Assembly: GCA_937934185.1 (NCBI GenBank)
Contig: CALHAB010000143.1
Span: 1-36,533 of the forward strand
DNA from: an uncultured Ignavibacterium sp.
GTDB taxonomy: Bacteria > Bacteroidota > Ignavibacteria > Ignavibacteriales > Ignavibacteriaceae
Length of the DNA: 36,533 nucleotides
Direction: 5' to 3'
The translations under genes were made by a program, and so were the position numbers. Positions 1 to 546 of this stretch are shown one piece after another. The notes beneath the pieces were generated by a model. That model saw only the letters and a list, made by a program, of their open reading frames with translations. It was not told the DNA's origin and did not search any database. Within the stretch, counting starts at the first letter, position 1. Each line of letters opens with the position of its first letter.

Positions 1-143
1 CAAGGCGAAATCTTTAACAGACAAGCTTAATACGATCCCTGTCTGTCGGGCAGTATTAAGCTAAAAAAATAGACAGACTATGTACGTAGATGTTCTTTGG
101 ATCTTAATTCCGGACGCGGGTTCGACTCCCGCCACCTCCACCA
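1..143 (+). ncRNA. ssrA: tmRNA (transfer-messenger RNA), 3' portion; 5' part lies before the window
   Basis: Ribosome-rescue RNA acting with SmpB. The 3' end is a tRNA-like half: T-stem GCGGG (116-120), loop TTCGACT, CCCGC (128-132), then an acceptor strand at 133-139, discriminator A140 and an encoded CCA at 141-143. Upstream is a typical tmRNA pseudoknot: stem 24-33 pairs with 53-62, inner stem CCC 37-39 pairs with GGG 48-50, and the loop GTCTGTC (41-47) is exactly complementary to GACAGAC (72-78). No D-arm/anticodon arm fits a tRNA, which rules out an ordinary tRNA. The tag-peptide frame and 5' acceptor strand are outside the window, so the tag sequence cannot be read. Confidence 0.9.
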
Positions 144-150
144 GTCTTCG

Positions 151-180
151 TTTTGAGTTTACGAAAAACGAAGACTGCAA
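151..180 (+). repeat. 30-bp direct repeat, left copy
   Basis: This copy matches 517-546 at 29 of 30 positions (A161 here, G527 there) and begins only 8 bases after the tmRNA CCA end. Together with 143-150 it also forms a hairpin: AGTCTTCGTTTT (143-154) pairs with AAAACGAAGACT (165-176). The two copies bracket the GIY-YIG gene. Confidence 0.85.
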
Positions 181-212
181 CGGCGAAATCCTGATTTATC
201 AGGATGAAGCCG
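181..212. repeat. Small inverted repeat (hairpin) upstream of the GIY-YIG gene
   Basis: ATCCTGAT (188-195) is followed two bases later by ATCAGGAT (198-205), and outer CGGC/GCCG arms can extend the stem. It lies inside the interval between the two 30-bp direct repeats and is probably part of the same inserted unit. Function unknown. Confidence 0.5.
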
Positions 213-276
213 TGCTAAAAACAACACAACAAAACTCAAAACTTCGCCTTGGTAAACCAGTAAAAATTAAACTATT

Positions 277-522
277 ATGACATATTATTATGTTTACATA
301 TTAGAAAGTGAAACAGATAGCACCAAACACTATATCGGATATACCACCGACTTAAAGAAACGAATTATAAAGCACAACAATGGTGAAGTAACGCATACCT
401 CAAAATATATTCCCTGGAAAATAAAAGCGGCAATAGCATTTACAGATAAAACAAAAGCACTAAAGTTTGAAAAATATTTAAAGAGTCATTCAGGAAGAGC
501 GTTCGCAAAGAAACACTTTTGA
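277..522 (+). CDS. GIY-YIG nuclease superfamily small protein (UPF0213/YhbQ type)
   Basis: An 81-residue protein, the usual size of stand-alone UPF0213/YhbQ GIY-YIG domains. The GIY strand is represented by VYIL (residues 6-9), YIG is at 19-21, the conserved Arg is R29 (KKR), and the metal-binding Glu is E65 in FEKYLKS, so the nuclease core looks intact. These domains resemble homing endonuclease catalytic domains, but the cellular role of free-standing copies is poorly known. The start ATG overlaps the stop of a short open frame that runs out of the tmRNA gene (ATGA), and the stop codon lies inside the right direct repeat (517-546). Placement just after tmRNA between repeats suggests a selfish or mobile unit rather than a housekeeping gene; that part is inference. 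Confidence 0.85.
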   Translation: MTYYYVYILESETDSTKHYIGYTTDLKKRIIKHNNGEVTHTSKYIPWKIKAAIAFTDKTKALKFEKYLKSHSGRAFAKKHF

Positions 523-546
523 GTTTGCGAAAAACGAAGACTGCAA
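517..546 (+). repeat. 30-bp direct repeat, right copy
   Basis: Second copy of the repeat at 151-180 with a single mismatch. It contains the TGA stop (520-522) of the GIY-YIG gene. It is framed by a short inverted pair ACACTT (513-518) / AAGTGT (545-550). Confidence 0.85.

Follow-up and report, generated by a model that had tools for sequence, protein, structure and literature searches.

A probable minimal homing-type mobile element, composed of a folded module and a small GIY-YIG nuclease gene, at the 3′ ends of tmRNA and tRNA genes

In a 36,533-nt stretch at the start of a contig of an uncultured Ignavibacterium sp. (‘the window', that is, the whole stretch of DNA analysed), the tmRNA gene is directly followed at its 3′ end by what is probably (at a probability of roughly 0.7) a homing-type mobile element, minimal and specific to its site, which resides at tmRNA or tRNA 3′ ends and consists of a folded module of ~120 nt plus the gene of an SLX1/UPF0213-type GIY-YIG nuclease. 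Comparison of sequences shows that the unit is specific to its site, that alleles with and without it exist, that different elements are exchanged at one site, and that tandem units, modules on their own and decayed copies occur. These results give good support to a unit that is tied to its site and recurrently exchanged; homing driven by the nuclease, which we infer, is the best mechanism for it. The locus is laid out as follows:

1..143, + strand: 3′ half of the tmRNA gene, the host site (Rfam RF00023, E 8e-37; encoded CCA at 141-143)
142..262, + strand: conserved structured module (H1, crossing helix P2, H2 and motif X′; covariance model R1, 116.8 bits; covariation)
142..177, + strand: hairpin H1, arms 142-154 and 165-177 (inverted arm; 93.5% paired in the relatives' alignment)
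150..242, + strand: helix P2, pairing 150-159 with 233-242 and crossing H1 as a putative pseudoknot (both-side changes in 8 of 10 pairs)
151..180, + strand: left copy of a 30-bp direct repeat, inside H1 and the linker
178..214, + strand: hairpin H2 (covariation in two helices; DNA and RNA folds)
277..522, + strand: gene of an 81-aa single-domain GIY-YIG nuclease (PF01541, E 2.4e-14; AF2 pLDDT 95; conserved residues)
517..546, + strand: right copy of the direct repeat, a truncated start of a second module that contains the ORF stop (relatives have tandem units and longer right copies homologous to it)
604..1982, + strand: host flank with DUF2752 and TM2 genes, which begins 92-96 nt after tmRNA in relatives with an empty site

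The contig starts inside the tmRNA gene, which was split by assembly, as its 5′ part forms the end of another contig (C222); the element itself leaves the gene uninterrupted, with the insertion point after the CCA. What an earlier note had described for this DNA was confirmed: the copies of the direct repeat are 29/30 identical (spacing 366), with the left one beginning 8 nt past the encoded CCA; the inverted arm (13/13 match) extends back into the CCA; and the GIY-YIG ORF is intact, its TGA stop (520-522) lying inside the right repeat. This is the sole such repeat pair within the first 1,500 bp, none of 1,000 Markov-1 simulations produced one and no further copy of the repeat was found elsewhere in the window; the repeat is far beyond chance. 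The view of the unit as bracketed by this repeat, on the other hand, had to be given up: because relatives carry tandem units (G035, G041 and G347), the right copy is read as the start of the next module, and a target-site duplication was rejected on the same ground. The element begins right at the CCA, and the direct repeat is not its outer bracket. The host genome has a single copy of the 404-bp unit; the search of its other tRNA genes for the same unit, which the note had proposed, returned none, and more distant GIY-YIG units lie at tRNA-Asn, -Pro and -Met. A defence system was rejected, as a PADLOC search gave weak matches only.

An alignable empty site was found in two of the five same-genus genomes (G004 and G005). 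The shared downstream genes begin 96 nt (G004) or 92 nt (G005) after the tmRNA end, as compared with 460 nt in the window, and the net gain that results, 364-368 bp, matches the direct-repeat spacing of 366 bp. The downstream flank is 78% identical to that of G005 over 1,385 bp, with the DUF2752 and TM2 genes syntenic, and likewise for G004. No module was found behind tmRNA in G001 and G002, the contig of G003 ends at the tmRNA 3′ flank, and most other relatives harbour unrelated sequence there. Within the genus, a conserved site is thus empty in some genomes and occupied in others, as is characteristic of a homing gene, and the empty tmRNA flank that the note had proposed to look for does exist in relatives. 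Neither of its refuting outcomes, a vertically inherited ORF at this place in every relative or the lack of any empty site, was observed, as the distribution departs from host phylogeny and empty sites exist. Its estimate of a minimal unit of about 370 bp agrees with the net gain (~366 bp), but the unit does not carry a nuclease alone, since the conserved structured module at 142-262 is carried as well.

Among 391 genomes of the class, 16 harbour a close relative of the element (cut-off E ≤ 1e-18), and all copies are located at the 3′ end of either tmRNA or tRNA-Ala, which bears out the proposal that the end of an RNA gene serves as the insertion site. The two ends have ..CTCCAC in common; one copy, in G154, lies at a contig start ending in ATCTCCAC. 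Among named genomes, 571 relatives came up in a scan, and the 80 that were kept are labelled as 15 phyla, of which single placements may be wrong because many of the records are MAGs. Within 600 bp upstream of these 80, tmRNA (16), tRNA-Ala (31) or other tRNAs (18) were detected; for the remaining 15 no RNA gene was detected, and in several of them the module is preceded by an RNA 3′ end that is truncated or degraded, or by another ..CCAC. The element mostly begins right after the CCA, and identity of the best named matches is 60-76%; deep trees on 75-80 residues are poorly resolved. Solo or decayed copies were found at L031, L079, L222, L233 and L234. Carriage by phages or plasmids was rejected, as tblastn gave no match in the phage or the plasmid collection. 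No description of these elements was found in the open-access literature; subscription journals and preprints are mostly outside that scope, so one may exist. As a separate observation, the elements at L120, L138 and L131 are preceded by just a short RNA 3′-end-like fragment ending in CCAC; these are possible ectopic copies or remnants and could define the minimal target.

The fold of the module was derived from an alignment of 15 left regions, in which RNAalifold revealed a helix (P2) that joins the H1 loop to the segment behind H2. For H1, P2 and H2 together, 91.8% of cells are paired (74.7% when shuffled and 30-46% when slid), and double changes are present in 18 of 27 module pairs. On this covariation, H1 and P2 cross to form a pseudoknot, provided that P2 does not alternate with the inner part of H1. 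A second, permuted architecture (type II), in which the P2 partner and motif X′ lie within the H1 loop and P2 forms a local hairpin while H1 and H2 are retained, is found in Bradyrhizobium, Terriglobia, Omnitrophota, G041, G339 and G154, as judged from the rows of alignment A3 excluding BrA1, which was wrongly oriented. That the helices are conserved despite this permutation speaks for a structure with a function, either of RNA or of single-stranded DNA. Across 59 relatives, model R1 located modules solely at tmRNA and tRNA-Ala ends, some of them without the gene, and found no dispersed REP-like repeats. Two further candidates were dropped: (i) a known RNA family or ribozyme, as Rfam gave no match to the module at E 0.5 in ten loci (the order P1-P2-P1′-P4-P2′ resembles HDV-like ribozymes, yet no family matched); and (ii) a pairing between motif X′ and the H1/H2 linker, for which there is little support from covariation.

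The encoded protein is a member of the GIY-YIG superfamily by its PF01541 match, is confidently modelled by AF2 as a single GIY-YIG domain, and carries catalytic residues (Y5, Y7, Y19, G21, R29 and E65) that are invariant in 14 relatives. Profile matches (1ZG2, E 2.5e-12; SLX1, 3e-9) and the top Foldseek hits place it in the UPF0213/SLX1 type, with UPF0213 BH0048 and SLX1 being the closest solved structures. No DNA-binding domain is recognisable, as the 81 residues hold the GIY-YIG domain alone by both PF01541 and AF2. SLX1 is a structure-specific nuclease, so by analogy a hairpin- or cloverleaf-directed cut by the nuclease of the window is plausible.

Under nuclease-driven homing, the nuclease would cut unoccupied RNA-gene ends, or structures forming there, and repair from an occupied copy would insert the unit, with the RNA gene being left intact. 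The module may serve the nuclease as substrate, as end or as RNA partner, and may also release or regulate the mRNA, which is probably transcribed from the RNA gene; loss would occur by deletion, with solo modules left behind. Two points of mechanism count against such homing: with the RNA gene uninterrupted, escape of the occupied site from recutting is not accounted for; and neither is the specificity of a nuclease that has no recognisable DNA-binding domain. A bolder and rather doubtful version is that of bacteria-wide RNA-dependent elements, in which the RNA of the permutable, pseudoknotted module would bind the GIY-YIG nuclease and direct it to tRNA or tmRNA 3′ ends, as a counterpart of omega-RNA.

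Exchange is most visible at the tRNA-Ala(GGC) locus of Bradyrhizobium, where an element directly follows the CCA in 28 of 29 readable genomes. Two element types, A and B, share ~54% protein identity and change 10 times on the tree of host flanks, about as often as shuffled labels do; by this measure, their alternation takes no account of host phylogeny. For example, L221 and L224 are 98% identical over 1 kb up to the tRNA end, diverge to the 3′ end of the ORF and then resume at 92%. L222, L233 and L234 are deletion products, while L216 was rejected as an empty site, for an integrase-like frame is located there, next to this CCA. The exchange could be due to ordinary homologous recombination between alleles, which was counted against homing. 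Extended to the element as a whole, this becomes the strongest rival, though an unlikely one: an old, mostly vertical locus in which recombination swaps alleles, deletions make the empty sites and the nuclease has no role in mobility. Occupancy of nearly all 29 loci, the return of identity inside the ORF 3′ end and the solo modules, which show that deletion occurs, are all in its favour. However, the element alone is exchanged and its flanks are not, the alternation of two such dissimilar types is near-random, and presence in 16 of the 391 class genomes and in 15 labelled phyla, with 60-76% identity among the best named matches, also speaks against this rival.

Still less probable is a host-beneficial unit of RNA processing or regulation, whose module would mature or protect tmRNA and tRNA 3′ ends and whose GIY-YIG protein would act on RNA. 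The strict same-strand placement directly behind RNA genes and the conserved module structure are consistent with it, as is the RNA role that others suggested from the fusion of an SLX1-like protein to TrmH (PMC1564403). Yet most relatives are devoid of the element and have unrelated sequence behind their tmRNA, and decayed copies exist. A remnant of an integrase-type island is hardly credible: tmRNA and tRNA ends are classic genomic-island sites and the frame at L216 is integrase-like, but the unit has one ORF and no integrase, its right repeat is module sequence rather than a copy of the tmRNA end, and the two-part unit (module plus GIY-YIG gene) recurs alone across phyla.

The homing-type element differs from known homing genes in protein type, in its place behind RNA genes and in its module. 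With free-standing homing endonuclease genes and the GIY-YIG enzymes of the I-TevI class it shares a small GIY-YIG gene and a conserved site that is found both empty and occupied; unlike them, it sits after an RNA gene with a structured module of its own, and its single-domain protein, nearest to UPF0213 and SLX1 rather than to intron homing endonucleases, has no separate NUMOD-type DNA-binding domain within its 81 aa. In IscB and TnpB elements, a structured omega or HEARO RNA lies beside a single nuclease ORF; the adjoining of a conserved structured RNA and one nuclease ORF is alike, yet the nuclease fold is not, and the guide segment and RNP have no shown counterpart in this element, whose module is known here from covariation and position. 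REP palindromes are hairpin repeats tied to RAYT (Y1) transposases and likewise link hairpin repeats to one small nuclease gene, but the present element has no Y1 transposase and its modules are not dispersed in the 59 relatives. Mobile ORFs in the mitochondria of the fungi Allomyces and Glomus carry a substitute gene end and target protein genes; they resemble the element in having an endonuclease ORF behind the host gene (PMC3630166), and its tRNA-type cousins likewise carry or leave duplicated gene halves, whereas a copy of the gene end is missing from the tmRNA-type unit. Group I introns that carry homing genes interrupt the tmRNA T-loop and splice (PMC11915505); target and combination of structured RNA with endonuclease are alike, but a group I intron was rejected for the element, which is inserted after the CCA of an uninterrupted gene and has no intron family match in Rfam.

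If homing is the right reading, few autonomous mobile units of bacteria would be as small as this one (~370 bp net), which would be present in many phyla where essential RNA genes end, hidden under the annotation ‘GIY-YIG nuclease family protein'. SLX1/UPF0213-type nucleases would then be likely mobile-element enzymes, with relevance for the annotation of tmRNA and tRNA 3′ ends and of island boundaries. It would also raise the question of how an 81-aa nuclease lacking a DNA-binding domain finds tRNA and tmRNA ends, to which the pseudoknotted module is a possible answer.

More distant paralogs adjoin other tRNA genes, and of the GIY-YIG ORFs whose locus includes an RNA gene, 74 of 74 share its strand. 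The GIY-YIG clades track the target gene (20 label changes, versus 37 when shuffled). Most tRNA-type units carry or leave a displaced tRNA half, cut near the anticodon loop and with a short palindrome inside, and they occur singly or as exact tandem arrays. Such layouts would be expected if insertion restored an intact gene, and the exact arrays would be explained in this way as well.

Several minor observations were made at these loci. Exact GIY-YIG tandem arrays of 3-5 copies with a period of 315-450 bp lie beside tRNA genes in G005, G006 and G030 (L086, L092, L085, L093, L096 and L097), and in their units the T-arm or D-arm region of the displaced tRNA half is broken by a short palindrome. 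The host genome has 14 palindromes of the form TCCCGA-N-TCGGGA in total (L113, L115, L116, L117 and L118 among the loci), nearly all in tRNA copies or in apparent structured RNA genes, which by eye include a cobalamin riboswitch, 23S rRNA and RNase P RNA. At L116 (G000:C134:1-1200), 226-bp tandem copies of a tRNA-Gly-like 5′ half plus palindrome, possibly non-autonomous units, lie upstream of tRNA-Gly with no GIY-YIG gene. Another GIY-YIG clade (L091, L094 and L056) is found between inverted repeats of the CCCCGTGAAAT..ATTTCACGGGG type, and two of its copies seem, by eye, to interrupt four-helix-bundle-like protein genes. At L006 (G000:C2), a dispersed-looking repeat (TGTCATTTC..GGAATGACA) is present in tandem copies, and a GIY-YIG gene lies within them. 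L075 (G007) and L062 (G038) harbour partial tmRNA 3′-end copies whose T-loop contains a palindrome; in one of the two loci a GIY-YIG gene lies between, in the other there is none.
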